From assembly GCA_021234155.1 (NCBI GenBank), contig JAJEKV010000064.1:3720001-3784000 (forward strand): 64,000 bases of DNA. The letters run 5' to 3'. The stretch is from Isoetes taiwanensis. Its lineage: Eukaryota > Streptophyta > Lycopodiopsida > Isoetales > Isoetaceae. The notes below the pieces were generated by a model, which did not search any database, was not told the origin of the DNA, and was given only the letters and a program-made list of their open reading frames with translations. Below, one piece after another: positions 1,451 through 25,067 of the stretch (positions within the stretch are counted from its first letter, which is position 1; each line of letters begins with the position of its first letter). A program made the translations under genes and the position numbers.

Positions 1451-1489
1451 ACAGAGTGTCCCATCCACCCAACTCCGCTAGCGCTGAGC

Positions 1490-1823
1490 TCATGACGAAA
1501 GGGCAGTTCGCCGTTCTGTGGCCTGGCTAAAAACATCTGAAGCAAAGCTGCTTCTCCATACACTCCTGCCTCTTTTCTTTGGGCATTGCTTGTAGGAAAG
1601 ATCGCACTGCCTTCGAGTAGTTTGACCCTTCCTGTTTGTCCTTGAAGGACACCTGCTTCCTTTCCTGTTGTCTCCCTTGGTTGCCACTATATGGGGATTT
1701 TGCTGGACTTGGGCTGGCTGCCCTAGGGCTGGCTGCCCTAGGGCTATAACTCCCTGTTGCTTTGCCTCTATCCTGGTAGTATGGCTGTTTCTGCGCGCTG
1801 TTTTGAGGCCCCGATCCTTGCAA
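1490..1823 (-). CDS. Gag C-terminal region with zinc knuckle (fossil)
   Basis: A basic, Ser/Pro/Gln-rich stretch leads into a cysteine cluster (CFRCF...H...C) typical of a retroviral-type CCHC knuckle, which binds genomic RNA during packaging. It sits between Gag and protease as expected. A short tandem duplication (GCTGCCCTAGGGCTG, near 1720-1745) gives a repeated RAASP peptide. This is part of a broken element. Confidence 0.7.
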
Positions 1824-4284: not shown

Positions 4285-4506
4285 AGTTGCTTGGACATCT
4301 ATCTCTTTGCCAAAGACTCGGAAGATGTCATTGACATTAGCCTCGGCTGCATGGGCACTGGCGTTGTACCATCATCTGAAGTCAGCAGTTGCCATTGATC
4401 TAGGGAAGAGGTGAGTAACAAACAGATGCAGAAGCGCCTATGGGAGCTGGGAAATCGCCTAAATGGTCAAGAGCAGACTTGTAGGGTGTCAAGTAGCAAA
4501 TGGGGT

Positions 4507-4519
4507 CCTATTTATAGGC
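4507..4519 (-). promoter_or_regulatory. TATA box upstream of the 399-codon accessory ORF
   Basis: The minus strand reads GCCTATAAATAGGACC around here, a strong plant TATA box about 110-120 bp before the first ATG. The same arrangement (CTATAAATAGACC, about 110 bp before ATG) occurs at 22880-22890 before the MARTKQTAR ORF. Each accessory gene therefore seems to have its own promoter inside the retroelement. Confidence 0.6.
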
Positions 4520-4708: not shown

Positions 4709-4775
4709 GTCTCACACGTTGTGCCCAGACCAATAATGAACTTTTCATTTTCAGTCCTGGCGCGACGTGTGAGAC
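4709..4775. repeat. Hairpin repeat C (GTCTCACACG...CGTGTGAGAC)
   Basis: The unit begins GTCTCACACGTTGTGCCCAG and ends CTGGCGCGACGTGTGAGAC. The arms can pair over about 20 bp around a loop of about 27 nt that contains CAATAATGAAC. Three related units are at 4908-4962, 22989-23055 and 23203-23269, all upstream of element-borne genes. Confidence 0.85.
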
Positions 4776-4907
4776 ATTGCCTCTAATTGGGTTAAACTTG
4801 TCCAATTTGGGTGATGGAAGGGTCTAATTCTGCTAGATTCATCGATTAGGCAGAATTGACCCCTTATTTGGTCGATTTGGAGCAGTTTTGGGCACTTTTG
4901 GTCCATG

Positions 4908-4962
4908 GTCTCACACGTTGCGCCCAGACCAATAATGAACTTTTCATTTTCACGTGTGAGAC
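4908..4962. repeat. Hairpin repeat D, shorter right arm
   Basis: This is the same repeat family as 4709-4775, with the same left arm and loop and a shorter right arm (CACGTGTGAGAC). It sits about 200 bp from repeat C, matching the ~214 bp spacing of the pair near 23 kb. Confidence 0.8.
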
Positions 4963-5108
4963 ATCCTCTGAATTTTGCTTAAAGTGTCCATTTTAACTAA
5001 AACAAAAGCCAGAATTCAATAACTTAACTTAATTAAGCAAGATTACACATATTACTTCCTCTAAAACTCTTTACATTAACAAAATTTTTCTATTTATGTA
5101 GAAAATCT

Positions 5109-5480
5109 TTATGGTCTCTCTCCCTTGATGTAGCTAGCAAGATGCATGTCTTGCTTCATCAGGGTCACTCTCTTTGCATGGACTGTGCAAGCTGTCGAAT
5201 CTTCAAAATGCTGCACCAGTTTCTGTTCTGTTGCCTCTTGTAATGCCAGCAACATCTCATCCGTCACCCGCATCTCCGTGTTGTACTCTTGTATCACCTC
5301 TCGAACTAGGCGGGCGAACGTTGCACGGGGGATTAAAAAGCCGAAGCTTCTCTGAAAGTGCCTGATCTCTCTCAGGGCTTTCCTCTCACTCTCCTTTCTG
5401 TCGGTTCTCTTTTTGCCTGGTGGTCTAGGAGGCTTGGGCTTTTCTGGTGGGGGCTTTAGCATCTTCTTCTTAGAGGGCAC
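5109..5480 (-). CDS. Histone H3-like protein, histone-fold part (element-borne)
   Basis: Residues 35-123 align without gaps to histone H3 residues 47-135, with roughly half the residues identical by eye. ALREIR, FARLVRE, LALQEA, FED, C..HAKRVT and a GER ending are all present. H3 C110, H113, K115, R116, D123 and the minor-groove R83 have equivalents here. The N-terminal ~34 residues are Lys/Pro-rich and not a canonical H3 tail. Canonical H3 packages DNA as an H3-H4 tetramer in the nucleus, but whether this protein enters nucleosomes is unknown. It lies just left of the large insertion whose right side carries the MARTKQTAR tail ORF. LIPR..FARLVR is shared with the second copy near 39.3 kb and differs from canonical H3. 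Confidence 0.85.
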   Translation of the reverse strand: MPSKKKMLKPPPEKPKPPRPPGKKRTDRKESERKALREIRHFQRSFGFLIPRATFARLVREVIQEYNTEMRVTDEMLLALQEATEQKLVQHFEDSTACTVHAKRVTLMKQDMHLASYIKGERP

Positions 5481-5736
5481 TCCACCTTAAAATCTCTTCT
5501 TCTTCTTCAACAAATGTTACTTTATTGACCTGATAGTAGGAGTTATAGGCCTCCCACTTCGCCATGAAAGCGTTATGCTCCCTTAATTTCTTCTGATAGA
5601 CCTTGACGGGGTCTATCACATACGCCTCACTGGCTGGCCGCGACGCTTTGTTTCTGTCCCACGTCGGGTATGGCGGGGGCTTCTGCACTTGATCCGGCTG
5701 CCCTGGGTCCTGTGCTGCCTGCTCGTCGCCTGGCAC
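5470..5736 (-). CDS. Middle segment of the H3-like element gene
   Basis: This frame overlaps the H3-fold ORF and lies directly upstream of it. It encodes a Gln/Pro-rich stretch (DPGQPDQVQKPPPYPTWDRN) followed by a helical, charged part (KVYQKKLREHNAFMAKWEAY) and an acidic run (VEEEEEIL). No known domain is evident. It ends at the left junction of the ~16.6 kb insertion, so it probably belongs to the same gene as the H3 fold and the MARTKQTAR ORF. The frame opens at a non-ATG codon, as expected for an interrupted gene. Fossil element. Confidence 0.55.
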   Translation of the reverse strand: MPGDEQAAQDPGQPDQVQKPPPYPTWDRNKASRPASEAYVIDPVKVYQKKLREHNAFMAKWEAYNSYYQVNKVTFVEEEEEILRWSAL

Positions 5737-5769
5737 AAGGCACCCAAAGATTTAACTATCATAGATAAC

Positions 5770-6400
5770 CACTACAAAACCACTATGATAGTGGTTTTCC
5801 ATGCAAAAATAATTTTCCTTAATAAAATCCACCTATTACAGTGGTTTTTAGAATGGAACTATGGTTTTGCATGCTAGTTTATACTCTTATGTGGTTAATT
5901 GAGACTGATGAAGCTTTTTATCCAGGTCTTTGCTACGAGTTTGGCATGTCATAGTGGTTAATTATGCAATTTGCAACATTGAGAGTAAGAAAGTAATGCT
6001 TAATAGTTTTTTTATACATGTAGATGGTTTTGGGAGTGGTTTTAACTGGCAATACTTCAATGTTCATATATATGGTTTAACAAAGTCCTTTTATTTGTGA
6101 TTTTTCATTTGGATTCTTTAAGCAAGCACGACTTGCCAAAATGTTAGTGGTTTTTTACTGGAAATACTATAATGTTTCTAGACATAGTTTAACAATGTCT
6201 TTTTATTTGAGGTTTTTCATCGTAAATTTTTAAGCTAACATGAGTTGCCAAATTGTTGGTGGCTTTTAACACGGTTTGGTGGTTGACTTTTTCCGTTTCC
6301 TGTTGAGAAAGAATGCTAGTGGTTTTTTTGTTAAGGAAGACATGGTGAGTACATGGTTTTACATGGTTTGTTAAGGAAGGAAGGAAGGAAGGAAGACATG
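5770..6400. repeat. Left subterminal repeat region of the CACTA-like element
   Basis: About a dozen variants of GTGGTTTT, such as ATAGTGGTTTTCC, ACAGTGGTTTTTAG and TAGTGGTTTTTTAC, are scattered over 600 bp. They are mirrored as AACCAC at 21.3-22.3 kb. In CACTA elements such repeats bind the TNPA-type protein. A short GGAA microsatellite lies at about 6375-6393. Confidence 0.55.
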
Positions 6401-6599
6401 GTTAGTACATAGTTAGACCAGCCTGAAACAGTGAATTCGACTCCACTTCCTTACTCCGTTGAATTTTTGCCACCATCTTCTGGAACTTTTCTTCTAATTC
6501 AGCAACTTCACTGAATGGCATGTTACTAGTAGCTTTTTTGTCTTCAACTTGTAAGGTGCATTGTTCACGTGTATTGGAAGTGCAGGGCAGCATTACCTT

Positions 6600-7016
6600 C
6601 TAATAATATCTCTCAATTGCCTTGTAGGTTGTTGAAGAATATCGCAAGAACGAATATGTGTCTTTGCTTTGTGGCGACGAAAAATTTGGTTTGGGGTTGA
6701 TTCATGAAACAGATCCTGCTGGTTTAGCACATGGAATACCAATTGGTGAAGGTAACGTTTCATTAAATATTTATTATATTGAGAAGGGTTCGAAGAGCTA
6801 CCAATGCCATTTCCGACGAGTGAACTCGAGATTTTAAATGATCTTGGCACTAATATGAAGCAATGGTTCGTGCGATGGCCAAAATCAAGGCTTCGACCCG
6901 TTCCTCAAATTGAAGCGAGGAAAATTCTGTCTGATTTAAGCACAATGAATGAAGACAATTCCATTACGGAAAAATCAGATGATGATAGCAGTGGCGATGA
7001 TTTGCAGGTATGTTAG
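6600..7016 (+). pseudogene. CACTA transposon TNP-like protein, exon fragment
   Basis: On the plus strand, VSLLCGDEKFGLGLIHETDP...HGIPIGEGN is followed in a second frame by EELPMPFPTSELEILNDLG and QWFVRWPKSRL. This resembles the C-terminal domain of plant CACTA accessory proteins, where a his-gly-x-pro-leu-gly segment is followed by LP.P and a 'G..V.WPK' block. Part of the change of frame may be an intron. The tail is acidic (SDDDSSGDDLQ) and ends near a GTATGT splice donor. The assignment rests on pattern memory. The surrounding subterminal repeats support it. Confidence 0.45.
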
Positions 7017-7107
7017 ACTTCAAATTGTCCTTTTTCATGATACAATAATGGGGCTGCCATTGAAATTAAATGTGTTGTTTTGAAATTCTTGTTTTTTATA
7101 TTTTGAT

Positions 7108-7262
7108 GTGATTTGCGTGTCACAGACTACAAAGTCAAAGCAGATTAGAAGATTGGAAAAAATGCAGCCTCTCAAACACAAGATTATATGCATGATTGCG
7201 CTTGACAAGGAGAAGATTGATGATGTTAATGTTGTAGATCTTCTTAAACTGAGCAAGGATCC
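7108..7262 (+). pseudogene. Possible last exon of the TNP-like gene
   Basis: After a likely intron, a Lys-rich frame (TTKSKQIRRLEKMQPLKHKI...DKEKIDDVNVVDLLKLSKD) runs directly into the 19-bp minisatellite. The charge pattern is protein-like, but I recognise no domain. The minisatellite probably replaced the original end. Confidence 0.3.
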
Positions 7263-7850
7263 AAACATGCCAGCAGGCTCCAACATGCCAAGGTGGCTCA
7301 AACATGCCATGTAAGCTCCAACATGCCGCCTAGGCTCCAACATGCCAAGGTGGCTCAAACATGCCACCTAGGCTCAAACATGCCAAGGTGGATCAAACAT
7401 GCCAAGATGGTTCAAACATGCTATGCAGGCTCCAACATTCCACCTAGGTTCCAACATGCCAAGATGGCTCAAACATGCCACGCGGGCTCGAACATGCCAC
7501 CTAGGCTCAAACATGCCATGCGCGCTCCAAGATGCCACCTTGGCTCCAACATGCCAAGGTGGCTCAAACATGCGACATGTGCTCCAACATGCCAAGGTGG
7601 CTTAAACATGCCACCTAGGCTCAAACATGCCAAGATGGCTCAAACATGCCACACGGGCTCCAACATGCCACCTAGGCTCAAACATGCCAAGGTGGCTCAA
7701 AGATGCCACGTGGGCTCCAACATGCCACCTAGGCTCAAACATGCCAAGGTGGCTCAAACATGCCACGCGGGCTCCAACATGCCAAGGTGGCTCAAACATG
7801 CCATGCAGGCTCTAACATGCCACCTAGGCTCCAATATCGCCACCTGTTGA
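7263..7850. repeat. 19-bp minisatellite (GCTCAAACATGCCACCTAG type)
   Basis: About 30 units of 19 bp repeat in tandem, alternating between GCTCAAACATGCCAAGGTG and GCTCCAACATGCCACCTAG forms. Because 19 leaves a remainder of 1 on division by 3, each unit shifts the frame. The unit lacks stops in all frames, so long spurious ORFs appear on both strands. Scattered units recur at 9285-9350 (inverted) and 10170-10262. Confidence 0.95.
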
Positions 7851-8291
7851 TTTTTGGAGTTCTTGGCATGCACCTTGCAGCAGCAGTCTATGACTGCCAG
7901 ATGCCACAAGGCTGCCACAAATGCTCATGAATCAACAAAAGAAGGTGGGAAGAGACTCCAAGAACAAGAACAAAGCAAAGAATGAACAAAACAGAATCAC
8001 ATTGATGCTCCAAAAGGAGGTGCTCCAAAACGTGAGCAAAAGCCTAAACAATGAGAGGAAATGCTCTCTCTAAATAGTAGAGCAAAACCCTAACCCTAAC
8101 TGACATCTCACCTACCACAGATCTAGGCTAAATCTGGGCCATAGATCGTGGGGTCCAATATGACAAATACATGTGGCCTATGCCACCTATCCCATATGGG
8201 CTAAATCTGGGCCCTAGATCAAGTGGTCCAATGTGATAAATACATGTGGCCTACGCCACTCATACATATGTTTAGCCCAAAGGGCTAACAC
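7845..8291 (-). mobile_element. LTR remnant (3' LTR, minus strand), ~447 bp
   Basis: The segment begins TGTTGATTTTTGG and ends GGGCTAACA (TG...CA borders). At 8292-8301 the minus strand has a purine tract GTGGGGGGAG directly before it, as expected for a polypurine tract next to a 3' LTR. A ~78 bp tandem duplication (CTAAATCTGGGCC...) lies at 8129-8275. No partner LTR is seen in the window. Confidence 0.55.
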
Positions 8292-8618
8292 TCCCCCCAC
8301 CAAACCAAACTATGTAGAACCTTTATAACAATAGGTTAAACATTTACAACAGTGTCCAAAGTGAGGGGAAGGAATGACAATGTCGCCAAAAAGTCTTGGG
8401 TCATTTTTGGCAACAAAAGAAACACGAACCTCTACATGGCAGTATTCTGCAGCCACCTCTTAGGCCAATCGACTACGAATGTGTTGGACATGAGCTACCT
8501 TGACGCTTCTTGGAGAAAGGGTGGTCTTCCGCTCACGAAACTTGGTCTCGAGGGTAATGTCGATGTTTTGAGTCCATTGGCAGAGTCAGTTTATAGTTTC
8601 GGAGTGGGAGAGTTGCCC
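8292..8618 (-). mobile_element. Internal remnant next to the LTR
   Basis: This lies on the internal side of the 7845-8291 LTR. A plus-strand frame is open across 8352-8678, but its orientation is opposite to the LTR and it resembles no protein I know. I treat it as non-coding retroelement remnant. Confidence 0.3.
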
Positions 8619-8619
8619 A

Positions 8620-9284
8620 TCCGTGGCCAAGCCTTCGGGAGAGGACCTTTGGGGCGAACTGCTTCCGGAAGGTTTTAAAGGTCCGTCTTCTGGCGTCAAC
8701 ACCCTCCCTCTACGTGATGACATTGTGCAAGATCCTGGTCGAATCCGACTAGGATATGGCCTCCGAAACGTAAACCCTGTGCGTTGCTAGGTTATTGAAG
8801 GGTTTACGTTATGAAGGTCGAGATTTAGTCAGTTGCACTTGGGACATGGTCAAGAAGCTACAGTTAAAAACATGAAGCAACAGGAACTGAAGGAATGGGG
8901 TTTGGATCTATTGACCATCCCAAATGATCCCAAACAATTTTGCTACTGCAAAAGGCACTCTTGGCTTCTATTTGCCATTATGGGAAGGGGGTAAATCAAA
9001 ACCCCATCCTGTCAATTCCTATTGCTTCGCGTTTTCAATTGCAGCGTCTCGGCCATGTCCCAATTGCAATCGACAAAAACTCGGCCTTTAAAACGTAAAC
9101 CCTTCAATAACCTAGCAACACACAGGGTTTACGTTTCGGAGGCCATATCCTAGTCAGATTCGACCAGGATCTTGCACAATGTCATCACGTAGAGGGAGGG
9201 TGTTGACACCAGAAGACGGGCCCTTAAAACCTTCCGGAAGCAGTTCACCCGAAAAGTCCTCTCCTGAAGGACCTTGGCCACGGA
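8620..9284. mobile_element. Foldback element, ~665 bp, with ~290 bp inverted arms
   Basis: 8620-8908 matches the complement of 8997-9284 almost throughout. CGTAAACCCTGTGCGTTGC, for example, faces its complement near 9110-9130. About 90 bp separate the arms. Such long imperfect arms suggest a foldback/MITE-type element or an inverted-duplicate insertion. Transcripts would form a long hairpin. No gene is inside. Confidence 0.8.
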
Positions 9285-9350
9285 CAGGCATGTTGGAGCC
9301 CACATGGCATGTTTGAGCCACCTTGGCATGTTGGAGCCCGCGTGGCATTG
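9285..9350. repeat. Inverted block of the 19-bp minisatellite
   Basis: Units reading GGCATGTTTGAGCCACCTT continue from the right foldback arm. They are the reverse complement of the 7263-7850 units. Confidence 0.8.
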
Positions 9351-10165
9351 TACAAGTTTCGCTGGACTTCACAAGTTCCCAACATTTGCATGTTACCAAA
9401 TTGTGTCCAACAATGCTGGGCACCATAACTAGATTCTCATATTGGTTCCATTTTTGTCTTGGATTAGTTGAAAACGCTAGAAATGCCAATATGGCACTCC
9501 TAAAGTCTAGGCACCTAGAAGAAAAACACGTCGATATTATCCTAAGAACCAATAGGTTTTGGACATGCCACACTAATTTGAAGTTGACCTCTTTTAGATT
9601 TTGCATAAGAATTGAAGCTAAAAACACTAGCTACTAAGCTACATGATTCTAGTGATTTAATCTGGATGAGACTATTGCCTATTGGGAGAACAGTGTTGGG
9701 CAAGATTTTTATGTCCCATCGAAAAAGTTCTTATGGTTACTTTGGTCAATGGAATATCTTGTGTTTAGAGCCGAACCTTCCTTTGTCTTAATTAAAAACC
9801 CATAAGAAAACTTGCTAGAAGTTTTCGATATATACTAGCTTCGCCAGAAGACTTTCAATTTCAACCGGTTGGTTAGTGTTCCCTAAATTTTTTCCAGATC
9901 TCATTGAGAATTGAAAATAAGGACTTATTGAGCTTATACAACCAAGAAGATGGTGCAGTGCACGTCCCAACCATTTTGGTTATGGCTTGAACATAGCAGG
10001 ACCCCAAAGATACCCCGCTAGAAGTAGTGGAACATAGATTATCATAGGTTGAAAATTAAAATTGAGAATTAATATATGTGTGAGAAAAATGCACCATCAA
10101 ATTCCCCCCTTGCTTTCTTTCTCCAGCTATGGCGATTTGTGAGCATGTCTGGTGCTATAGCACTA
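9351..10165. other. No gene recognised
   Basis: AT-rich sequence with frames open on both strands near 9323-9637 but no protein signature. Nothing else was seen. Confidence 0.4.
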
Positions 10166-10262
10166 TCGTTCGAGCTAGAACATGCCCCAAGGCTAGAACA
10201 TGCCTCCTTGGCTCAAACATCCCACATAGGCTCAAACATGCCCCTAGGCTCAAACATGATCA
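10166..10262. repeat. Short outlying block of the 19-bp minisatellite
   Basis: About five degenerate units (GCTAGAACATGCCCCAAG, GCTCAAACATGCCCCTAG) lie in the plus orientation. They show that the repeat once spread over at least 3 kb. Confidence 0.75.
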
Positions 10263-12810
10263 CGTTTTGCGGGCAAAAAATCTTGTAGGAACTTTGGAGT
10301 TTCTATACAAAATTCGGCAAATACTCCTTAGCTTATATGCAAAATCTAGTGGAGCCTGACATACAATGGCAGATTATTTTAAATAAAGGTACTGGGGATT
10401 CTGAAGCATGGCCACTGGAGTCATAAAAATGCATAATTTATTTGTTCTTTGGATGAAAAATGATCTTGTATGAAATATCACCTGAGTCTGGATCGGGACA
10501 TCGTTGATGCCCCATGGAGAAAAGGGGCATCATGGGATGGGGGCATGGGATGACGTGACAGTGGCCATAAACTTTGCAAATCTTTTTACAAAAAATTTTG
10601 AAGGGAAAAAAGTTTCTAATCAAAAATGATTTTTGGTTTGGATGGACCATTGGTTTTTTTTGCAGATATCTTCTTCCCTTTGAAAATATTTTCTTCCCTT
10701 CAAAAAAGAACATAGGATATTATTAGAATGACAGACCCTTTGATCTGAAAGCTGCCCTTTTGGTTCACTGCATACAGGCAGTAGGACCCAGATTTGGCTT
10801 CGGCATCCAAACAAATCGTGGAGCTTTGTGGGTTTATTGGTGCTTTCGATGTTGGAGCTTCATTTTGTGCACCTGTTGTAGTATTACTTGGGCAAAGGCA
10901 TCCTTGGCATGCAACATGCAACCAAAGCTTTTTTTTACAAATCCCTTGATGACATGCCTTCCTTGGCCCAAAATCTCTCGCACCCTGACCTGTCTGTGTT
11001 CAATGTGCTGGTCGGCTGGACTATGTTATGTTAGAGCTCCAGCGATGATCTTAGAGTGTGTTTTGTTTGTTTGATTGTTTTTTGCTTCTCAACATCGATC
11101 TACAACAAGAAATTTTACGTTGGCTTTGTCTTTGCAGTCATTCGACATTTTTGATGTTTGCAACAAGGTGTCTGAAGCATATTTCCGGCAACAAACTAGG
11201 TGTTTGAGGGGATGATTAACCTCAGTCGACTCAGTTTTAGGGATCTCAAAGGCCTTGGTTGGGCTGGTGCTGGGTATCCTGCAAATGCCATGGAGGTCCA
11301 ATTTTTCCACCTCTGTCCTGAGTAAACAGGGGGCTTTGCCACGTGTACGGTGGCAAGACCCCTATATATTGAATCATTGGTGGTAATTTCGTAATCCAAT
11401 GGCTTTTCATTATTGGCTTTGTTTTTTTTAATTTTGGCAGACCAAAAAAATGACGTGTCCCATACAAAAAACCCTATAACGAAAAAACAATAGAGCTTTG
11501 GGCGGCTTCCTATTAGCATTGCACATTGCACCTAGGTTTCACCCTTGTGCCTTGTAGGGCAACATAAATGGGCCCTTTGTCAATGGTGAAATAAAAAAAA
11601 AAAGGCATGTTATAATTCGATCCTATATAGCGGCTCAGATGAGTGGTTCAGATCGTGATCCAAGTCGTGCAATCCTATTGGCCGAAAAATAACGGTCGAG
11701 ATTAACAACTCAGATTGCTTGCATTGTGTTTTTTTCGAACCGCTTCAATCTCCCTTCTTTCCCGCTTCTCATTTCCCGCTTTTGATCTCCGGCTTCACCG
11801 CTTCTTCTGAAGTTCTGATCTCCTATCTCGCTTGTTTACCGCTTCTTCTGATCTCCTATCTCGCTTGTTTGCTGATCTCCAGCTTCTGAACCCGGTTCTC
11901 CTGTTTTTTATCCACGACTTTTGAACCAGCTTTTCCGCTTTCTGGTCCATTTTGTTTTCTTCAGAAGCGGTGCTGTTACAGAAGAGGAGTTGTCCTTCTC
12001 AAGATAAATTAGCACATTAGAGCAATTTGAAGCGGTATTTAGAAGATCAGCTGGGTGTTGAGTATGGCGTTGGATCGAAACCGAGTTGCTGCACTGGTTT
12101 CTGCACTTCCGATCCATCTGATTCTAGCACCTTTTTTTTTTTCCCATCAAATTTCGATGTCAGATTCTCATTTTCTTTTTCACAGCTGCTTATACATCAA
12201 CGGATATGCAATCGATTTGGATCCAAGGCTTCGATCACGTTTTCCTGGACTCCTTTCAATGAATCTGCTGCTTCACTGTAGAAATCATCAATCCGGTCAT
12301 GGTTTTGCTTAGGTTTTTGGATTCCTCAAGTTATTGGGTTCTTGAAATTTGAGCTTTGTTCTTTAGAGTAGAACAAAAGAAGAAAACTTATGCTGGACGG
12401 TATTCAGCCAAACTAACGCCTCTGCTTAGCTAAATTTCAGAACCATATGAGGATTCAGAGATGAATATTTTGCATAGAGCAGCAAATGGCGGTAAGAGCT
12501 GCATTCGGCTGCAAATTTTTAGCCTGCATCAGAATATGAAGGGTTTTGAAGGAAAGGGAATATCATTGTGCAAGCAAACAACGTATGGCAAAATATTTGG
12601 GGATTGCTCAAGCAATTTTTAATTCTTGGTAATGACTTCCTTTTCTTTTTGGATTGATAGGTCTACTATACAAAGGAGAATTCATGCAGAGCACAAGGCC
12701 TCAATGCAAGCTTGGGGCTGTAAGATCCATAAATTTGCTAGGAACGAGGTCTGTAATCCTATCCTCAATAATGGTTGCACTGATGGTTTCCATAAACTGC
12801 ACTTTCTGGG
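10263..12810. other. No gene recognised; a CT-rich promoter-like stretch
   Basis: I see no supportable coding region. At 11620-12000 there is a TATATAG motif followed by repeated CGCTTCTTCTGATCTCC-type CT-rich DNA, resembling a plant 5' leader. It could be a captured promoter fragment. A T-rich/A-rich inverted patch lies near 10570-10710. Confidence 0.35.
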
Positions 12811-12814
12811 AAGG

Positions 12815-12845
12815 GACTCGCGAGAGACACAAAACCGGCCGATAG
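12815..12845 (+). repeat. Direct repeat pair with 13834-13873
   Basis: GCGAGAGACACAAAACCGGCCGA occurs here and again at about 13850-13872. The left copy is just before the A-rich block. The right copy directly follows the 13711-13832 repeat, suggesting a ~1 kb repeated or rearranged end. Confidence 0.7.
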
Positions 12846-13384
12846 GCTTGTCATTCATCACAGCAGCAGTATACAATGTGTGGAAAAACTAGGGAGAGAG
12901 AGAGGGGATAGCCGACCATAGGAACAATATCGGACTACCCCCTAAAAAGAAATTTGCCAAGGCAAAATAAAAGGGTAATGGCGACAACTTCTCACCGGGA
13001 TAAAAAACCCCGCCCTTTCGGGTTTTCGAGGAAAACCCTAATGAGAAATGGTCGCCAACAACCTTGAATGTGTTGCCTGGAGAATGGAGAGAAACGAGTT
13101 GATGGCGAACACAAAATAGAGCACGACCCCAGCCAACGGCAAAAGCCTCCCCCGAATGTGTCCATGGAGAACCGAAGGAGAGGGGTGATGGCGAACAGAA
13201 ATAGAGCAGGACCCCAGCAGACGGCGGAAAACGGCGGAATCCTGCAAGCAATACCAAAAAACTCCCAAAAAGAACACCCGTAAATGGTCAGAGAAAACAA
13301 ACAGCACAAGCTGCACCAAGAAGGTCCGAAAATGAAAACAGAGGAAAAAAGAACATAACAGAAAAAGATCATAGGGTGGAAAAA

Positions 13385-13545
13385 GCATCACCCAGCAGGT
13401 GGAGAACCATTATGTAAAAACATGCATCACCCTCGAGGTGGAAATAAACAGCGTAAAGCATCACCCAGCGGGTGGAGAACCATTATGTAAAAATATGCAT
13501 CACCCTCGAGGTGGAAATAAATAGCATCACCTGCAGGTGGAGAAC
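13385..13545. repeat. GCATCACCC-GGGTGGA hairpin repeats (tandem)
   Basis: Short palindromes such as CATCACCCAGCGGGTGG, CATCACCCTCGAGGTGG and CATCACCTGCAGGTGG occur five times. Some are in a ~74 bp tandem unit with AACCATTATGTAAAAA. Two more are at 15163-15210. Confidence 0.8.
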
Positions 13546-13710
13546 AACACAACAAGAGGGCAATGGAACAGAAACATAAGAATAGCAGGGCGATGGAACA
13601 GAAACATAAGAATAGCAACACTCACAGGTGGAGAACAAAGAGGCATGAACAACAAAAAATACAAATGAAAAAGACTCATGCGCCACCGTCAGCAGGGCGG
13701 GAAGGGAGGG

Positions 13711-13832
13711 AAGCCACGAGAGGAGAAAAAGAGCTGCTGTGAGAGGACGCCGATAACCGAGCCAAAATGAAAATGGCCTAATATGGGCCGTCCCTTCCTA
13801 ATGGCGATCCGATGGCTCGGATCGATGGGATT
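13711..13832 (+). repeat. Direct repeat, left copy (pairs with 20640-20766)
   Basis: The copy starts AAGCCACGAGAGGAGAAAAA and ends GGATCGATGGGATT. It is nearly identical to 20640-20766 apart from small indels. The pair brackets ~6.8 kb of A-rich DNA. The repeats are too short for typical LTRs and lack TG...CA ends. Confidence 0.85.
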
Positions 13833-15159
13833 CTCGGGAAGGACTCAAGCGAGAGACACAAAACCGGCCGACTACCAAAGGACTTCCTCAACTATAAGCC
13901 TAGTCGCTATAAAACCTCCGTGTGAAGCCGATAGTAAGAAGATACTCCTGCCACCACCCCCGAGCAGTCGGATAGGATAAAGGATGCAGAGAGAAAGGAG
14001 AGGAGCGAAAAAGAGAGCCGCCGGACGGAGGATCGAAGAGATGATAGGAACCAGTAGAAATTAGGCGCTGAAGGATAGTGATGGGGCATGCGAATGAAGG
14101 CAAGCGAGCTAAAGAAATCGTGATGACCACGGCAAATTGGTCTCGCTTTGGAGTGGCAGGAGGAGAAAGGAAACCGTGGTCCGAAAAGTCCGAAGCTACA
14201 TGTTGATTGAGAACCAAGGCCATGAAGCGGTTTTTGAGTGGGGGGAGAAAACGAAGCTGAAGAAGAAGAGCCGGAAGCGCCTGCTATGGACGGTATCAGC
14301 TCAATGACCTGAAAAAAGGAAAGGACATTAGAAAAAAAACAATGAAAAGAAAAGCACGCCGCCATGATGACGAAGCGCCCCAGCAACAAGGCGATGAAGA
14401 AACAAACCACGTTAACGCGTACAATGCACATATGATATGAATGCAGATCACGGAATGTCAATATGCGGGAAAAGAGGTCAAACCATAAACTAGATAAAGG
14501 AAGATGAATATCAAGAGTGGTAAGGTGAACCTAAAAAGCAACGTCGCAAAGCTTACCAATACAAGACAAACACCAACAGAATGAGCCAGCTCAGAGGAAT
14601 GTCAAGAAAAAAGAGGTTGACAACAAGAAGTCTAAAGCAAAGAAGTTCATAATGAGGAGAGTGAAAATGCCAAGGTCCGGTTCAGGGTAGCATAGGAGAA
14701 ATGTGTAGTGATGTCAGAAGACAAATACCATATGCAAAAAGCCATGAATAAAGGCCCCAATAGGAAAACAAACTTTGGCAAACGAGGGATGAGATCGAAG
14801 AAGAGAATGGAGACATACTAGCACCGAGCAAAAGGAAGGTCAAGAAGGAAACTAAAGGTAATTCGGAGCACAACGTAAAAGAAAAAATGAGGCGTAACTT
14901 CATAAACTATAAGCCCAGCCACCGCGAAACCGCCAGGTGTCGACTCAGGTGACGAAGCGCGTAGCGAGGGTGAGACGAAGAGGAGTGCCAACGACCGTGA
15001 GCACGAGAAGGATGGGAACAGGTAGAAGGCACCCATGAACGATTAAGGAGAACAAGAATGTGCATAATGGTGAAGCGACAAATTGCAAAACTACAAGCAC
15101 CCAAATTGATGTGAGCGATTAGAAATGAGAAAAAATCAACAATTCATGAAAAAAGAGGG

Positions 15160-15212
15160 GATAGCATCACCCGGGGGGTGGAGAAAAGCATCACCCAGCG
15201 GGTGGAAGAAAA
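15160..15212. repeat. Two further GCATCACCC-GGGTGG hairpins
   Basis: AGCATCACCCGGGGGGTGGA and AGCATCACCCAGCGGGTGG lie in tandem. They are the same family as 13385-13545. Confidence 0.75.
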
Positions 15213-15630
15213 ACACATGATAAACAGAAATTTATGTCCAAATATAGCTAAATAGCAAATATGATGTATAAGGGTAGCACAATGCATAATGATAGCGAGC
15301 GACAAATGAAGTCCCCAAAAAGACAATAAAGTTATGTTTTAAGCCCAAGGATAAATACGAGAAAAGAGGAATGCAAGCCAATGAACAAATCAACAGGAAA
15401 ATAACCACAGACAAGAGCCCAGCGGCTAGAAAAAGTGTAAAACACGATCGCCTTAATAACAACATGAACAATGCTATAATCCCCAAACCACATCAGAGTA
15501 TATACCGACAGAAAGTAGGATACGAAAAATGATCGAGTGAGCAGGGCAAAATAATGGACGAAGCTCCCCATAACTAAAAAATCAAGGAAAGAATATACAA
15601 TATGAAAATACGACATGAAGTTTAAACCAA

Positions 15631-16232
15631 TGAGGTGAATAGGCTTCAAAGGATAAATATGGTGCAAAAGAGCTCGCAAATGCAAAAACATGACAAAGTG
15701 CAAAAAACATGGCAAGGAGAAGAATGTAAAAGGTTGAATGAGTATAAGGAAGTGCCAAACGCAACATGCGGCATATCCAGAAAAAGATAAATAGCACAAA
15801 TACAAATGACGTGTAATACTAAGGCCAGAAAACCAAAAACTGAAAAGAACAAGGCAAGAACACAACGCCAAACGACAAGGTGCCAAATCGGACTTAAAAG
15901 AGGTCAAACCATAAACCAGATAAAGGAAGATGAATATCAAAAGTGCTAAGGTGAGAGTGGAATTCATGAGGTGAATAGGCTTCAAAGGATAAATATGGTG
16001 CAAAAGAGCTCGCAAATGCAAAAACATGACAAAGTACAAAAAACATGGCAAAGAGAAGAATGTGAAAGGTTGAATGAGTATAAGGAAGTGCCAAACGCAA
16101 CATCGCGACGATCCGAGAAAAAAGCTAAATAGCACAAATACAAATGACGTGTAATACTAAGGCCAGAAAACCGAAAACTGAAAAAAACAATTGCAAGAAC
16201 ACAACGCCAAACGACAAGGTGCCAAAAAGGAC
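15631..16232 (+). repeat. 336-bp tandem duplication
   Basis: 15631-15895 and 15967-16232 are near-identical (both run from AGGTGAATAGGCTTCAAAGG to AACGACAAGGTGCCAAA). A further partial copy of the intervening piece (GAGGTCAAACCATAAAC...) is at about 14476-14525. Confidence 0.9.
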
Positions 16233-17199
16233 TCGGTAGCCCCTAGCAACGAGGGTCATGAGATCGTTAAGGGACATCGACATTATCTCTATATTGTCTC
16301 TACATTGGCTCTATATTGTTTCTATCAGGGACATATGTACACAGTCCAAAAGAGTCGATTCATGATAAATAACCAATCCCCCTATAGAAATGGAAAATAC
16401 CCACATTCATGTATCTAGATAAAATTGAGTAAGCCACCACGTGAAGAAAAAGTGGCAGAGATATCGGTCCACCAACCTAAAGCCCATAAAGAACCAATAA
16501 AAGAAAAATCATCGAACACATAAAATGCATGTATCTAAGCAAAACGGAGGAGCCATAGCCCATAAAAAAATCAATAGAATAAAATCATCTAGCACATAGA
16601 AAAAATGCATGTATCTAAGCAAAATGAAGGAACCACCATATGATACAAAAAATGTTTCCATTGATCGTATTCTAAGACAAGAAACCGTCAAAGAGTAGGT
16701 CCCATTATGTCTAGCAATGTCAAAGGCAACTCTAGATGCGAAAACAAGAAGAGAACCCGGTATAGTACTCATAAGAACCACCAAAAATCAATAATCGGAA
16801 AAGAATACTACAAAGGAACTTACCATAGTAAATATGTGAACAACAAGCATCGACATGACCCTAAGCAAAAAACCCCCAACATATGGAATACTTGGAACAC
16901 AAGCCCTGTAGCAATATTGAAAATAACTAAGATGGCATACACAAGTCAGGTAACAATATTTAAACAACTGGCAACAGACATAAAAAGACAAAGTGCAACC
17001 TGGCAAATGTGATGAATAAATCTCGGGCAATCAAAAGAATGAAACCATGAGAATGCAGCATATAAAATAGAAAAACAACAAAGACAAAATTCAGAACAAA
17101 CAACACATAGGCCACGAAAAGAAACTAAAGTAAAAATCGCGGGCCGAACATAAACCCGGAAAATCAACCTGGAATAACCCGCACAAACATGTTGAAGAG

Positions 17200-17930
17200 T
17201 CGCGGTGCATCCAAAAAATAAGATAAACCACAAGTGCAAAAAATAAAACCCAACAACTATGGGAAACCTAGAATGTAGAAGATAATACCACCCGAATAAC
17301 GTATACCACCTGAGCCAAGGGTAGTGCATCACACATAAGATATAAACACAAGTGCAAAAGATAAAACCCAAACCACCATGGGGAAACCCTAAACACAGAA
17401 AAGAATGCCACATATAACCACATGGGAACCACAATATAAAAAATAACATACAAAAGAGATACATGTCGGAGAAATAACACGCAATTAAGGCCATACTGCA
17501 ACCTACCATGGAAATGGAATGCCTCAATGTAAAAAAGACAAATGCAACCCGGAAGATGGTGGCCACAAATCTAAAGGCAATAAAAAGATAATAAACCAAG
17601 AGACTGCAGCGTAGAATTATGAAAACAAGACAACATCCCAAGTAACCGACCACAAGACGAAAACGAGGTAAAAAGTGAGCCAGAACATAAACAAGAGAAA
17701 AAACAGCGCGAGGAGAGCATAGACCCATTTAAATAGTATGGTGCATCGAATCCACGATTAAAACACAAGTGCAAAGAAGAAAAATCCGAAAACAACCATG
17801 AAAAAGCCACAAATTCAAAGGATAATGTCACATATATAAAAACTAGATGTCCATCAACTTGGAAAAGGTAACATACGAAAGAGATAACATGGGAGGGAAA
17901 AACCACCCCCTAAAACAAAAGCCCCTAGAT
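17200..17930 (+). repeat. Diverged repeats around ACAAGTGCAAAAGATAAAACC
   Basis: Three or more diverged copies (near 17228, 17350, 17765) share ACAAGTGCAAA, AACCATGGG-like and CACATATA-like blocks. This is old tandem structure inside the A-rich block. No coding sense is visible. Confidence 0.55.
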
Positions 17931-19284
17931 GCCTCATATTCTAATGCAATTATGAATAAGACATGAGAAAAACATAACAATCGAAAACCCCGCATAGGAA
18001 AAAGAAAAGGGACACCCAAATGATAGAAAATATAATGTAAATGTGACTCGTAATTCCCTCCGAGGGTATATGTAAAGGGGGCATAAGATAACCTATGTAA
18101 CCATTATAAAAAATCAAAGGCTATGAAAAGGCCATGATAAGTAAAATAGGGAGCATAAGACAAATAGTAACCGATGGAGAAAATATGTTGAAAAGAGGAA
18201 CAAACGCCAGATAAATGAGATGATCCAATGAATATAGGCAACTGATCATGCATATCGTAGAGTCAAAAGTGCCAGTAAGCACAAATGAGAAGAAAAAGAT
18301 GCCAAACCCATAATTAAATGCAAATACCAAACCCAATCCCCATGAACAATAGTTGAAAATAATTATGTAGGCAGCTAACTAAAACATAAAACTAACTAAA
18401 ACATAAAACGACTTGAACAATATAAAAATTGTGAGCTAAGGAAACATAAAAGGCTAAGAGACATGGACGAACCCAGAGCGACGAAACAAGTGCCGCATTG
18501 GAACATACAAACGCGAAACAAGCTAACAAAACAAATTTCAAATCTTTCTGTGGGAAATCCGGAAAAAGAGAAAATCCAAATCCACAGGAGAAAAAAGGTA
18601 AGAGCAAACCATATGCGTGCCATCGCCGTGCGCTGCAGCCTCCTATAAGGGAAGAAAAGCAATCAGAAAGGGAAGGGAAAAGAAGAACTGCCATAGGTGT
18701 GCTCTGCCATCGCCATCTCCGGCTGCATGCTCGTCACGATAGCTGCTGGCCGACCTGTGGATAAAGGAGGAATGAAAAGACAGGAAAAGATCGCCACCAT
18801 AGCCGCTTGTTTGTTGCCGAGTGGCCATCTCCACTCTGTGACTTGAAGTCGCTCCAGCGCCATCTGGAAAAATCGAGCTCCAAGGCATGGTCCGAAAAAT
18901 CCTGAATCGACATGGCCCAATCTGTAAATCTGTTCAGAGAAAAAAGAAACGAAAATAACAAACAAGAAACAAGGGTCTGATCCAGCCCGAAAATTTGAAA
19001 ACAACCATCCTTAGAAACAAGTGGAGCAGGGGTGAAATGAAACGCGAAGTCCAGAAGCCAACTGCGCAGAGGCCTACTAAATGGACAAGCTCATACCTGA
19101 GAGGCCTGCTAGATGGACAAGCTCATACCTGCATCTGCCCACGTAGCATGGAGCATAGGAAAAATCCATGCATCCACGCAAGTCGCATGTAGCATATAGA
19201 GGAAGCGTCAACGAGGAATCGAAAAGAGACCGTGGCATGATCTACTTGGAGAAGAAGCTAGAAAGGATCAGGCGTCATGTGAGA

Positions 19285-19500
19285 AACAATATAATATCAT
19301 AAAGCTTAAAAAGAAAGGTTTTTAACCATTTATATCAAAACAACAAGAACATAATAAAAGAGAACGTTTCAATACCGTTATCTACAAACAAGGAACCCTA
19401 TAAGGAGTAAATGCATGCGAAAAACATTATAATATCATAAAGCTTAAAAAGAAAGGTTGCGAGAAACATTATAATATCATAAAGCTTAAAAAGAAAGGTT
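19285..19500 (+). repeat. Three copies of a ~32 bp repeat
   Basis: ATAATATCATAAAGCTTAAA followed by AAGAAAGGTT occurs at about 19291, 19429 and 19469. The last two copies are almost adjacent. They lie just left of the tRNA-like sequence and may be its tail. Confidence 0.8.
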
Positions 19501-19514
19501 AGGAAAAGATGAGT

Positions 19515-19585
19515 TCTAAGCCGGATTTGAACTTGGGTCTTTGCTACAATGGATTTAAACCTTAACCAACTAGACTAGTAGATGT
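19515..19585 (-). ncRNA. tRNA-derived sequence (SINE head or decayed tRNA)
   Basis: The minus strand has an A-box-like TAGTCTAGTTGGTTAAGG (19560-19577) and a B-box-like AAGTTCAAATCC (19522-19533) at tRNA-like spacing. Arms are imperfect, so this is probably not a working tRNA. RNA polymerase III promoter boxes of this kind define SINE heads. The 32-bp repeats to its left would be the SINE body or tail. I cannot assign an anticodon with confidence. Confidence 0.45.
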
Positions 19586-20639
19586 GTAATAAATTAAAAA
19601 CCAAGGGTTTAATAAGAACTGTAAACAAACACAAACAAACCTAACAAGGGACTCTGTTTGTGCGAGGACAAGGCCGGAATGGCAAAGCAAGGTCAGAACA
19701 GGTCGGGATGGCGAGGAATCATGCCGAATAGGAGTGTGAGAGGCCGTTCTACGGCTTGTTCTATCTGCAAGCTTCTAGGTATGCAATTGTAGAGCTTGAG
19801 GAACCCATATCTGAAAACATTCTGGAAGAAAACAGAGATGATCAAGAGGCATCTGCTTAGAATACAACAGAGGTTTAAATTGAAGAAAAATCCCTTTCTG
19901 CAGAAGTAAAACAGGATAAGCGTAGTCTGAGCCCATCGCTGTAGGAAGAGGCAAAGGTGAAGGCTACGAGAAAGAAAACAACGAAGTAGAAGAGCGGGTT
20001 GGTTGGAGCAGATCGAAGCAGGGAGATGGCCACATGGAAGAGATCAAACTAACAATCAGAGGAGAAGAATGAGAATCTGAGCATGATAGAAGAGATTAAA
20101 CCCATAATGAAAAGAAAAAGGGATGATACCAATGAGACTTAGAACCTGGAAACAGATCGAAGTAGGCTACTCCCAGTCGAAAGGATCGGATACAACCACG
20201 GAACTCATCGCTGGTACAGATCGAAGATCGCAGCAAGCCATGCCCAGCCGAAAAGAAGGAACCCGATACCAGCAGAACGGAAAAAACGGACTCCAACGAC
20301 TGCATATGCCGCCCACAAGAATCGTACCACCGAACCATGCATGCTAATAGTAAGATAAGTGCATCCAATAGAAAAGAGAGACATGCACAGCGTGAGAGCA
20401 ACACGGTTAGCAAGATCGAGACAGAAAACATATGAAGAACAAGATTGCACAAAATTGCACAAATCCCGATGATATTGAAACCTTTAAGAGGATGATCAAG
20501 GAAAACTCGCCAAGAAGAAAACCGAGACGACGAGGCTGAGAAGCGATCCAGTAGTGATACCAAACAAGAGATTCGATGAAGAGAAAAACATCGTGGATAA
20601 AGAGAAAAACATCGTGGACAGGGGCAACGTGGACGAAGA

Positions 20640-20766
20640 AAGCCACGAGAGGAGAAAAAGAGCTGCTGTGAGAGGACGCCGATAACTGAGCCAAAATGAA
20701 AATGGCCTAATATAGGCGCTCGTCCCTTCCCAGAATGGCGATCCGATGGCTCGGATCGATGGGATT
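20640..20766 (+). repeat. Direct repeat, right copy
   Basis: Matches 13711-13832. The A-rich block ends exactly where this copy ends, so the repeat probably marks a true element border. Confidence 0.85.
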
Positions 20767-21299
20767 AACCAAATTGCACTTTAACCAAATGGTAATTTTA
20801 AGCTGCACTAGTATGTGCCTTCAATGTTCTGCTTATCTGCATCAGCAGAAACGGAATTGCAAAAATATAAAGATGCTTTTAGACGTTGTTGTAATTCCTT
20901 CAGTAAGTTCCTGATAGTCTTTGAACGAAATCTACATCTACGGCTTAGAACAGGAAACAGCCACGCTCATCTCATCTTCAGGTGGGTTGTTCGTTTCCTT
21001 TTCCTTCTTTCTTTAGCTAAGCTAGACATAGTTCATAAGATGTTAACATATCTGTGCAGATTATTTCTATATCATCTTCTAAAGCATCGGATTGCCGTGA
21101 TGCATTTCAAAATGCTAAACATGTGAACAAAAATGCTCAAATAAGCAGCAATTTTTACCAAATGCTTTAAACAAATAAAAACTATGGAAATAACGTATTA
21201 TTTGCTTATCAATTACTTAAGCCATTTTTTTTAATTTTAATATTATTATGCCTTATGGACTTGTTTGGGTTCGATTCCCAAAAGGCTATCTTAAGAAAA

Positions 21300-22304
21300 A
21301 CCACTAGGCATAAATGTCAAGAAACTATGTAGTCATAGAACAAATGCATACATATATAATCAATAAGACTGCTCTTGTTTTCATTCATTAACCAAAAGTG
21401 CTTTAGATCATAGAAACGTAGTGATTTGTCATCATCACCATTGCTACTATGATTGAAGAAACTATTAGGTCTTCGGTGAAAAGATTGCCATTCTTTCTAT
21501 GCATAACTTAAGAAGCTTAACACTAGAAAGTGTTTAGTGGTTTATCATTCTTAACAAATACACTTTGAGTGGAAAGGGCGTCATGCCTTTTATGCATTAA
21601 TTGAAACGCTTTAGACTAGAAGCCATTAGTAGAATAGAATATGATTTTATCGTCAGTGGATTACCAACTTTAATAAGTACTACAATACGTAAGAAACCAT
21701 CCATAGTTCTTAATGGTTTTAGTCTATTAACTTGAAATGCTTCAGACTATATAACATTACTAGTTTATCAATGATAACCATGACCCTAATGCGTTATAAA
21801 ACCATGCACATTTAGAACAAAACTGTTATATCTAATTTTGATAAGCACAATAGTGCTTTAATAGAAAACCCTAAATACTTTGACTAATCAACTAATAATG
21901 TTTTATTGCTATTAACACAATTCGAACTATGCATATTTACCATGAAAATTAGTCAGGCTAGTTTTCCACAATAACAAACCACAACAACTACCACATTATG
22001 AAATCACATGAATAGAGCACTACATTGAAACCACATCCACAACCATCACATTATACCACATGGACAAACCGTACCCTTAAAACAATATAATGTACCACAT
22101 CCACGTACCAACATATAATACCACTGCCACAAACACTAGAAATAAGCCATTTACAATCACCATGACGTAATACCATTTTAACAGACCTTATAAGAAGACC
22201 AACTAGTTTAGCCACATATGGTTTTTAATGAAATTAACCCCCAAACACCCATTGGTTTTGTAGAATGATTTTCTAGTCACAACCATAGAAAAAACCATGT
22301 AGTG
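21300..22304. repeat. Right subterminal repeat region of the CACTA-like element
   Basis: AACCAC/CCACAT-type motifs (AAACCACATCC, ATACCACATGG, AACAAACCACAAC, GTACCACATCC) recur across about 1 kb and end in ACCATGTAGTG. They mirror the GTGGTT motifs of 5770-6400. The stretch 20770-21300 shows no gene. Confidence 0.55.
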
Positions 22305-22322
22305 TTTTAATTTTGGGTGCCT

Positions 22323-22775
22323 CTCCTCTTCTTCCCTCTTCCTTTTCTTCTCTTCCCTCTTTCTCTCTCGGCGGCGTTCCTTGGCTTCATGCTTTCTAAT
22401 CCACGCCGCCAGTTCTTCTTCTTCCGCTGGGTCGAGGGTCGGCTCCCTCTGCTCCTCTTGCTCCTCGGCCCGATCTTGTTCTTCTTTCTTCTTCCTTTCC
22501 TCCTCCTCCACTTCTTCAAGAATTTTCTGCATGACGTCCGGCTCCTCATTGTCAAGGACCTCTGTCCCCGCATCGGAGTGTGCATCCTCCTCCACCTCTG
22601 TCTCACCCCCTTCTTGGTCGTTGTTGTTGGTGGGGTGCTCCTCGGACTCCGTTCCCTCGCTGGTTGAAGGTTGACCTCCTTGCTGAAAGAGGCACTCTCG
22701 AAGCATCTCTTGGAGTAGGGCGCTGGGAGTTGTTACACCTGGAGGAACTCTAGCAGTCTGTTTCGTCCTGGCCAT
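22323..22775 (-). CDS. H3-tail ORF: starts MARTKQTAR, acidic coiled region (element-borne)
   Basis: The first nine codons give MARTKQTAR, identical to the start of histone H3 (tail residues 1-8 after Met removal, including K4). The tenth codon is Val, where H3 has K9, and PPG follows. The rest is Glu/Lys/Arg-rich: an acidic stretch (residues ~45-75), then a long charged helix (KILEEVEEEERKKKEEQDRAEE-type) and a basic end (KRRRERKREEKKRKREEEE). The frame continues to 22203, but that part is transposon sequence. The ORF starts about 110 bp after a TATA box and directly follows the 5' LTR, primer site and hairpins. It appears to be the front of the H3-like gene whose fold lies at 5109-5480, across the insertion. 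The rest of the element is a fossil. Confidence 0.8.
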
Positions 22776-22879: not shown

Positions 22880-22890
22880 CTATTTATAGA
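22880..22890 (-). promoter_or_regulatory. TATA box upstream of the MARTKQTAR ORF
   Basis: The minus strand reads TCTATAAATAGACC, about 110 bp before the ATG. The flanking GGTCC/GGACC context resembles the TATA region at 4507-4519, so the two accessory genes seem to have duplicated promoters. Confidence 0.6.
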
Positions 22891-22988: not shown

Positions 22989-23055
22989 GTCTCACAGGTT
23001 GCGCCCAGACCAATAATGAAAAGTTCATTTTCGGTCCTGGCGCGACGTGTGAGAC
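22989..23055. repeat. Hairpin repeat A
   Basis: Left arm GTCTCACAGGTTGCGCCCAG and right arm CTGGCGCGACGTGTGAGAC can pair around a CAATAATGAA-containing loop. Family member of 4709-4775. Confidence 0.85.
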
Positions 23056-23202: not shown

Positions 23203-23269
23203 GTCTCACACGTTGCGCCCAGCCCAAAAATGAACTTCCCATTATTGGTCCTGGCGTGACGTGTGAGAC
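23203..23269. repeat. Hairpin repeat B
   Basis: GTCTCACACGTTGCGCCCAG ... CTGGCGTGACGTGTGAGAC, about 214 bp from repeat A. It lies between the primer site and the TATA box. Confidence 0.85.
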
Positions 23270-23463: not shown

Positions 23464-23475
23464 GCTCTGATACCA
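23464..23475 (-). promoter_or_regulatory. Primer binding site (initiator-Met tRNA type)
   Basis: The minus strand reads TGGTATCAGAGC, the usual plant retroelement primer site complementary to the 3' end of initiator tRNA-Met. It lies one base from the LTR end (23477), as expected. Confidence 0.9.
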
Positions 23476-23476
23476 C

Positions 23477-24877
23477 TGTGACGTCCCCTACTCGTGTACG
23501 GTGCACCCATCGTATACAAACAGGAGTTCATCCCCCATACCAGTGAAGGGGTCATTTTACCCCGTCTCCCTCAGGGCCTACCTAGCTGCGGAAGCGTAAA
23601 CATACATGTCAGTATATATAATCATCACATGTCCACCTCGAAGGGTGGCACACCAACATCTGCATAGACAAAGATCAGCACAATACAAGTGGGTTCCTAC
23701 CCAAGGTTCAGACTCTAGGGGATGACTGACAAGCTTGGGTCTCCAGAGTTCATTGCAGACAGAATCATGACAATGGATTTGGCTGGCATAAGAACATGGC
23801 ATTGGGTTGTCCACTCCATCCGCCCCTCCTGTGCACACTTTGCAGAGTAGGTTGAAGAGTGTTGGGACTGGACTGTAGCCCGCCGGATGCATAGCCAAAG
23901 GGGCTACTTCTGGGTTGCATCTCCCCAGTTCCGATGGGGCAGGTAGGGATCACTCCCACCAGAGATCTCCATGCTGACTCAAGGTGACTAGAGGGCCACT
24001 GCCCTTATTCGACTTAACCCACTGGAAAGTGAACTCCACTCCACGGGTGTCGAGCCCATGCCTTACCCACACTCAGTGGCAAGCCATTAGACCTAGTCTA
24101 CGGTGATCCCGGTAGGCCTTACACACCAGAGGGATCGATCAAGAGTCAGAACACGAACCTCCTTCTGAGCCAGTCTGGCCCCTTCACCCACAACCAGGTG
24201 TGGTTCTTGTACACAGGCCAAAATCTAGTAATGCACTAAGAGGGACTAGCTAGGAGCATCAACTACTAAGCTTTAAGTCTCTACCCCCCCTTCCCAATAC
24301 AATGAGTCCACAGAATTCATCCGTCTATCACATCATCATAGAACTAAAGAATAAGAACTAATCTATATCATAGAGTTAGGTTCTTTAGTTAGGGTCAATC
24401 TGGGGCTCTGCTTGGCTACTAAGAGTAATTTAATAGGCTAAACATATTGGTTCGATGGCTGGAATACGGTTTAGGCTATTAAATCGACTAAATACCTGAT
24501 CCCTGGTTCACTCCTCTTGATCCGAAGGCGTACATGTCGCTGCTCTGCTTGGGGATGCGGTCGGAAGGTGAATCTGACGAGCTAGGGCGCACGGGCAGAT
24601 CTTGGAAGGTTCGTGTACGAAAAGGGAAGAATTAGAGTTTGGTTACCTTACATAGGCTCTCAGTTAGGTTTAGGGTTTCCATGACCCTTGGTCTGCCTTT
24701 AATGGGTTAAAGGTTTAAAGTGCGCACATTGCTAAGTGTGCGCACCCTTGCAAGTTGCCCCCTAGGGTGCCCTTGCTTGGTTACACGTCGGCGTACACGT
24801 CGATTGGAGTGGCGTGTATGCGTGACGGTGCAGTACGGTATACGTTTTGAGACCGTATATCGTACTGGAACGTCACA
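23477..24877 (-). mobile_element. 5' LTR (1401 bp) of the H3-bearing retroelement
   Basis: Perfect 8-bp inverted ends TGTGACGT...ACGTCACA bound this segment, and the primer site follows immediately. The LTR is GC-moderate and non-coding. Frames within it have no domain. The partner LTR should lie beyond the left window edge past pol, so an age cannot be estimated from this window. Confidence 0.85.
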
Positions 24878-25067
24878 GAAGTTACTTAATTACATGGAAA
24901 TTACATACTTATATACTTAATTTCTATGAAAAGCATAGGTTTATACCCATAATTCCAATGGAGTATCTTTACCTGTGATATGCACTTATTATGTGTTGCG
25001 TGCTATGTAGCCATAGCTCACGTGTATCCCAAGGAATTGTATCTCATATGGGGAATTTAGATCGTAA
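24878..25067. other. AT-rich flank, no gene
   Basis: No feature was recognised between the LTR and the ORF fragment that follows. Confidence 0.4.

Follow-up and report, generated by a model that had tools for sequence, protein, structure and literature searches.

A Ty3/gypsy LTR element of Isoetes taiwanensis encodes, in the first of its open reading frames (ORF1), a variant histone H3 some 415 amino acids (aa) long, in which the tail residues ARTKQTAR are followed by a charged linker of around 300 aa and an H3 fold. The element was recognised in a stretch of 64,000 nucleotides (nt) from contig JAJEKV010000064.1 (positions 3,720,001 to 3,784,000; hereafter the window), where an ATG on the minus strand at 22775 opens MARTKQTARVPPG and reads MARTKQTAR. 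A preliminary description of the window had reported these nine H3-tail residues at a start codon, and they are indeed the sole 9/9 match in the six frames of the window, with fewer than 6/9 matching elsewhere. That description had also taken the frame for a retroelement ORF with an H3 tail; the tail is real, yet what had been missed is that MARTKQTAR opens a complete H3-like histone, split in the window by a 16.6-kb foreign insert.

The tail belongs to a chromodomain-bearing element that lies on the minus strand and reaches past the edge of the window (Table 1). Between the LTRs, the minus strand holds in order the primer site, two palindromes, a TATA-like box, ORF1, two further palindromes, a second TATA-like box, ORF2, gag, protease and reverse transcriptase (PR-RT), RNase H, integrase, and a chromodomain. 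The LTR, primer site, hairpins, and TATA box previously noted upstream of the tail are all present on the tail's strand, and the LTR is now backed by its partner and a target site duplication (TSD). The paired TG...CA LTRs with their TSD and a primer site adjoining the 5' LTR are the features of an LTR retrotransposon. The two LTRs match at 94.3% over 1376 columns and at 100% over a further 67-nt piece, while 64 nt of the 3' LTR have no counterpart in the 5' LTR. The primer site is one that we take to be of the initiator-Met tRNA type. The order PR, RT, RNase H, integrase is that of Ty3/gypsy elements, and the part lying past the window edge (L051) gave Pfam matches to RNase H (4.1e-31), rve (6e-07), SH3_Tf2-1 (1.2e-22), and Chromo (4.8e-10). 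The chromodomain at the integrase end is the chromovirus trait, and membership is judged here from the domains. The palindrome pairs and TATA-like boxes at ORF1 and ORF2 look like two internal promoter units.

Table 1. Features of the histone-bearing element and its insert in the window (strand given as + or -, or as a point where none applies).
Feature	Position	Strand	Remarks
5-bp TSD GAAGT	24878..24882	.	other copy L051 340-344, outside window
5' LTR (TG...CA)	23477..24877	-	paired with 3' LTR L051 345-1851, outside window
Primer binding site TGGTATCAGAG	23465..23475	-	adjoins 5' LTR
Palindrome GTCTCACACGT...ACGTGTGAGAC, first of two 5' of ORF1	23203..23269	.	
Palindrome, second of two 5' of ORF1	22989..23055	.	
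TATA-like box TATTTATA 5' of ORF1	22881..22888	-	
ORF1 first part, H3 tail MARTKQTAR and start of charged linker	22322..22775	-	
16.6-kb foreign insert	5739..22321	.	TIR-like ends GGCACCCAAA...TTTGGGTGCC (10 bp), without direct TSD
ORF1 later linker	5481..5738	-	frame stops just before fold
ORF1 histone H3 fold	5109..5480	-	ends IKGERP; Pfam Histone 2.5e-25; PDB H3 chains 4.6e-25
Palindrome pair 5' of ORF2	4709..4975 (4708-4777 and 4907-4976)	.	match pair 5' of ORF1
TATA-like box 5' of ORF2	4509..4516	-	
ORF2	3085..4395	-	broken in window copy: early stop, frame break near 3085
gag	1874..2737	-	Pfam Retrotrans_gag 3.9e-17
Protease and reverse transcriptase	3..1526	-	Pfam RVP_2 6.6e-10, RVT_1 5.4e-40

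The second extra frame, ORF2, is 508-509 aa long in copies L038 and L049. It showed no resemblance to Pfam or PDB sequences, and structure prediction from one sequence gave a mean pLDDT of 35. Elsewhere in the window, an ORF at 43777-44334 resembles part of ORF2 by eye, and pieces of a further chromovirus RT at 56623-58698 match the element's own at 87% over 300 nt. A separate reverse transcriptase ORF at 53730-54803 (RVT_1 1.8e-29) is unlike the chromovirus and perhaps that of a LINE.

The frame that carries the tail in the window, listed as 22203-22775, enters the foreign insert at 22321; the gene resumes at 5738 and ends at 5109. Compared with copy L018, some 190-200 nt of ORF1 are absent at the insert, and the insert and the flanking loss possibly reflect recombination between two insertions. 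Because the linker frame stops where it does, tail and fold do not stand in one frame in the window; with the insert, the loss, and this stop, the window copy is therefore dead for ORF1. A tandem array with a 19-nt period was also observed at 7200-7940 and 8632-9348, with nearby inverted repeats that contain units of the array. As for the class of the product, it has the fold of histone H3, while the canonical tail with K4, K9, K14, and K27 is kept for residues 1-8 alone, and ORF1 is thus an H3 variant and not a canonical H3.

The genome of Isoetes taiwanensis (1,658,258,908 bases in 1110 contigs) was searched for further copies, here called family A. ORF1 gave at least 195 matches (best 150 of 13173 candidates scored) and the fold at least 150, all with 78% identity or more (best 150 of 9858 candidates scored), and among the matches listed the copies are spread over many contigs. 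Two samples were drawn. The larger comprises 40 copies from the top 50 rows of the ORF1 search, all aligned from residue 1; the ten rows left out were the window's own, four starting later, and five others. The smaller consists of 20 copies from the upper part of the 150 fold-search rows that were absent from the ORF1 list. It is the fairer sample for the tail (7 of 20 exact), since the residue-1 start of the 40 copies favours intact tails.

The layout seen in the window recurs throughout the larger sample. In all but one of the 40 copies (39/40), MARTKQTAR is followed on its own strand by an H3 fold, whose first match begins 838-960 nt after the ATG in 35, and five copies have tail, linker, and fold in a single frame, uninterrupted over 410-424 aa. 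The primer site is exact in 29/40, lying roughly 620 to 760 nt upstream of the ATG; the first TATA box lies about 110 nt 5' of the ATG in 37/40 and the second TATA box is found in 34/40. At least one palindrome was found upstream in 33/40 copies (two in 21) and downstream in 34/40 (two in 26). Thus the tail does sit in an LTR element between primer site and gag in many copies, as had been anticipated, at least in the Isoetes taiwanensis genome. The absence of other LTR copies with this ORF and a chance fusion beside a host H3 pseudogene had been named as grounds for abandoning that idea; many copies share the layout, and its recurrence at a fixed arrangement in the same genome rules out such a pseudogene next to an LTR. 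The tail match is likewise beyond chance, because the same genome holds many copies with the same layout, in addition to the result of the six-frame scan. A stand-alone tail peptide is excluded by the fold that follows the tail and by the five uninterrupted tail-to-fold frames. In one family-A copy (L050), a fragment of a family-B gene (described below) was observed at 103-725, on the opposite strand and adjoining the ORF2 break.

Both the tail and the fold of family A are under purifying selection. Pairwise pN/pS was 0.069 for codons 2-9 and 0.162 for the fold, compared with 0.26 for codons 15-150 and 0.353 for the later linker. Just 3 of the other 407 eight-codon segments were as low as the tail, all of them in the alpha-2 helix, and the tail codons vary silently, e.g., R2 is encoded by AGG, CGG, and CGA. 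Among the 20 fold-found copies, 16 tails were recognisable by eye, 7 of them exact, and K4 and Q5 were kept in all 16; the remaining four had no tail within the 400 nt taken. Residue 9 is more variable. Of the 40 copies, 35 have Val at this place, three have Lys, and two have Ile; in the 16 fold-found tails the residue is Val in nine, Lys in two, Ile, Phe, Ala, and Ser in one each, and unreadable in one. In a tree of ORF1 built without the tail, Lys against the other residue-9 states amounts to two changes. The earlier proposal that this tail cannot be marked at K9 thus holds for most copies but not for those with Lys; since some copies keep K9, its loss is no rule. The five intact family-A frames contain no ARKS or ARKT (ARK[ST]) motif and therefore lack the sites, K9 and K27, at which silencing marks are usually set.

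The family-A fold shares 48 of 89 positions with host H3. H3 residues R69, R72, R83 (16/17), C110, H113, K115, R116, T118, and D123 are kept in the sampled folds, while R63, K79, R129, and the P43-T45 stretch are changed. Outside the fold, the first eight tail residues are common to both proteins, whereas host H3 has 136 aa against about 415 aa in family A, in which the tail after residue 8 is replaced by the linker. In a tree of the fold, family A stands on a long branch and groups weakly (60/85) with three plant CENH3-like rows. Neither a grouping with H3 (p-AU 0.054) nor one with a second histone-bearing family, family B (p-AU 0.079), was rejected, and family B itself lies close to host H3 in a tree with 16 family-A copies and the window. 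A search for the host CENH3 listed matches indistinguishable from element copies. The folds of the two families may stem from either one capture or two.

Family B emerged from a search with plant H3, which found at least 15 host genes at 96-98% and at least 135 other places at 71-86% (best 150 of 9022 scored), many of the latter within frames that stay open for over 400 aa. In the four such loci (L084-L087) that were examined, the protein closes with a near-canonical H3 fold. An N-terminal domain starting MANTKS or MAITKS is common to three of them, while that of L086 is a different one. A 411-aa family-B query gave at least 101 matches at 79-100%, 69 of them without a stop (best 101 of 11077 scored). 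Family B is thus a second high-copy family with a fold far more H3-like than that of family A. Its element context is drawn from one copy, L088, downstream of which lie relatives of ORF2 (24% over 245 aa, E 1.8e-7) and gag (52% over 25 aa, E 3.2e-7), both E-values being from a small search space. In three pairs, dN/dS was 0.011-0.037 for the fold and 0.10-0.155 for the N-terminal domain. No homology was found between this domain and ORF2, and the MARTKQTAR tail is missing from the family; the stretch before the fold shows a weak and uneven likeness to the host tail (11, 5, 137, and 33 of 500 shuffles).

The element shares with the plant Ty3/gypsy chromoviruses the LTRs, the same primer site, gag, the PR-RT-RNase H-integrase order, and the chromodomain at the integrase end. 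It differs from them in having two extra ORFs 5' of gag, the first of which is the histone H3 variant, each with its own palindrome pair and TATA-like box. We know of no histone fold among the extra ORFs of the OTA Ty3/gypsy elements. These (Ogre, Tat, Athila) are also LTR elements with extra ORFs, but are non-chromoviruses (PMC6317226). An LTR element encoding a histone was not found among published open-access papers. The nearest known case is a hAT transposon of Pseudocercospora fijiensis and related fungi, a mobile element that has captured histone H3 and amplified H3 sequences to hundreds of copies (PMC6710886). It is a DNA transposon with copies mostly truncated and inactivated by RIP (PMC6710886), whereas the copies of family A belong to an LTR element, have long open frames and a linker of some 300 aa, and evolve under purifying selection.

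Among proteins from public assemblies, P0140 (402 aa) and P0142 (395 aa) have a similar plan, with a MARTKQTARK start, a long charged linker, and a terminal H3-type fold. They differ in that the part linking tail and fold does not significantly resemble that of family A, bar one linker test: after the tail, 19-218 of 1000 shuffles were as good, and for the linkers, which are of very biased composition, 40/300 and 1/300. A public protein search with the N-terminal piece of ORF1 returned 806 candidates, none at E 1e-3, and no close relative of family A was found among the public proteins. Viral contigs searched with ORF1 of L018 and with P0142 gave no confirmed match.

Taken together, these features suggest that the elements act on host chromatin. 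The reading preferred here is that element-encoded H3 variants pair with host H4 and enter chromatin, to the presumed benefit of the element, and we regard the chances for and against it as about equal. The ORF1 protein would pair with host H4, be handled by host histone chaperones, and be placed in chromatin, with the DNA of the element itself or its insertion sites, or their vicinity, as the most likely location. There, the family-A tail would add an end with K4 and, in most copies, without K9; it is plausible, as a candidate role, that this tail is shown to chromatin writers or readers. Such nucleosomes could bear active-type K4 marks but no plant heterochromatin marks, and thereby could help the element evade silencing. 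Since family B has no MARTKQTAR, tail-based escape cannot be what the clade as a whole uses its histones for; as the fold is the part common to both families, the task that they have in common is most likely a nucleosome or H3-H4 function. Entry into chromatin is countered by the changes at R63, K79, R129, and P43-T45, and by the AlphaFold2 prediction on the fold alone, which gave a weak model (mean pLDDT 68, pTM 0.42). A bolder version, in which a plant LTR clade builds its own chromatin, with H3 variants on its own DNA or insertion sites and a K4-only family-A tail that is unmarkable by K9 or K27 enzymes and read by its own type II chromodomain, seems to us unlikely.

Other roles can be envisaged for the same protein. 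It could be speculated that the histone made by the element docks at sites of integration or marks them, and is read there by the element's own integrase chromodomain or pre-integration complex. The presence of a chromodomain in the same element speaks for such targeting or tethering, but most plant chromoviruses, to our knowledge, have no histone gene, and we would be surprised, if not greatly, to see it confirmed. Judged by eye, the chromodomain keeps the cage Trp and not the other two aromatic positions, and may be type II-like; that the cage was assigned by eye weakens the case. In type II chromodomains, the first and usually the last aromatic cage residue are missing (PMC6317226, PMC3350952), and their partner is described as unknown (PMC6317226). 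That the element chromodomain meets the ORF1 histone is a guess. A somewhat smaller chance still is given to free ORF1 protein acting as a decoy that, without entering nucleosomes, titrates writers, readers, or chaperones of the host and thereby weakens silencing. The strongly constrained tail epitope and the long, charged linker would suit a decoy, but if readers were its only target, there would be no need for a histone fold under constraint, and in family B it is the fold that is kept, not the tail.

The weak grouping with CENH3-like rows, together with the resemblance by eye of APFARLVREV and LLALQEA to grass CENH3, raises the idea that the family-A fold is of CENH3-like descent and guides the element to the chromatin of centromeres. 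However, loop 1 has the length of that in H3, as judged by eye in the printed folds, rather than the longer one of CENH3; the grouping with H3 was not rejected; and copies lie on many contigs, among the matches listed. A centromeric origin is thus quite improbable. Hardly to be expected at all is a captured host H3 gene travelling with the element as a neutral passenger, in the manner of the fungal hAT transposon. Transposon capture of H3 is known (PMC6710886), but purifying selection on the family-A tail and fold and on the family-B fold, the fixed place within the element, and a plan common to two families all argue against a mere passenger.

If the protein does enter nucleosomes, as the preferred reading holds, a retroelement would write its own chromatin, going beyond reading or evading that of the host. 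It would allow a direct test of transposon escape from silencing and offer a possible partner for type II chromodomains. Finally, the two families would show, as a natural experiment, how much of its tail an H3 histone needs and which part, with eight residues kept in one family and none in the other.
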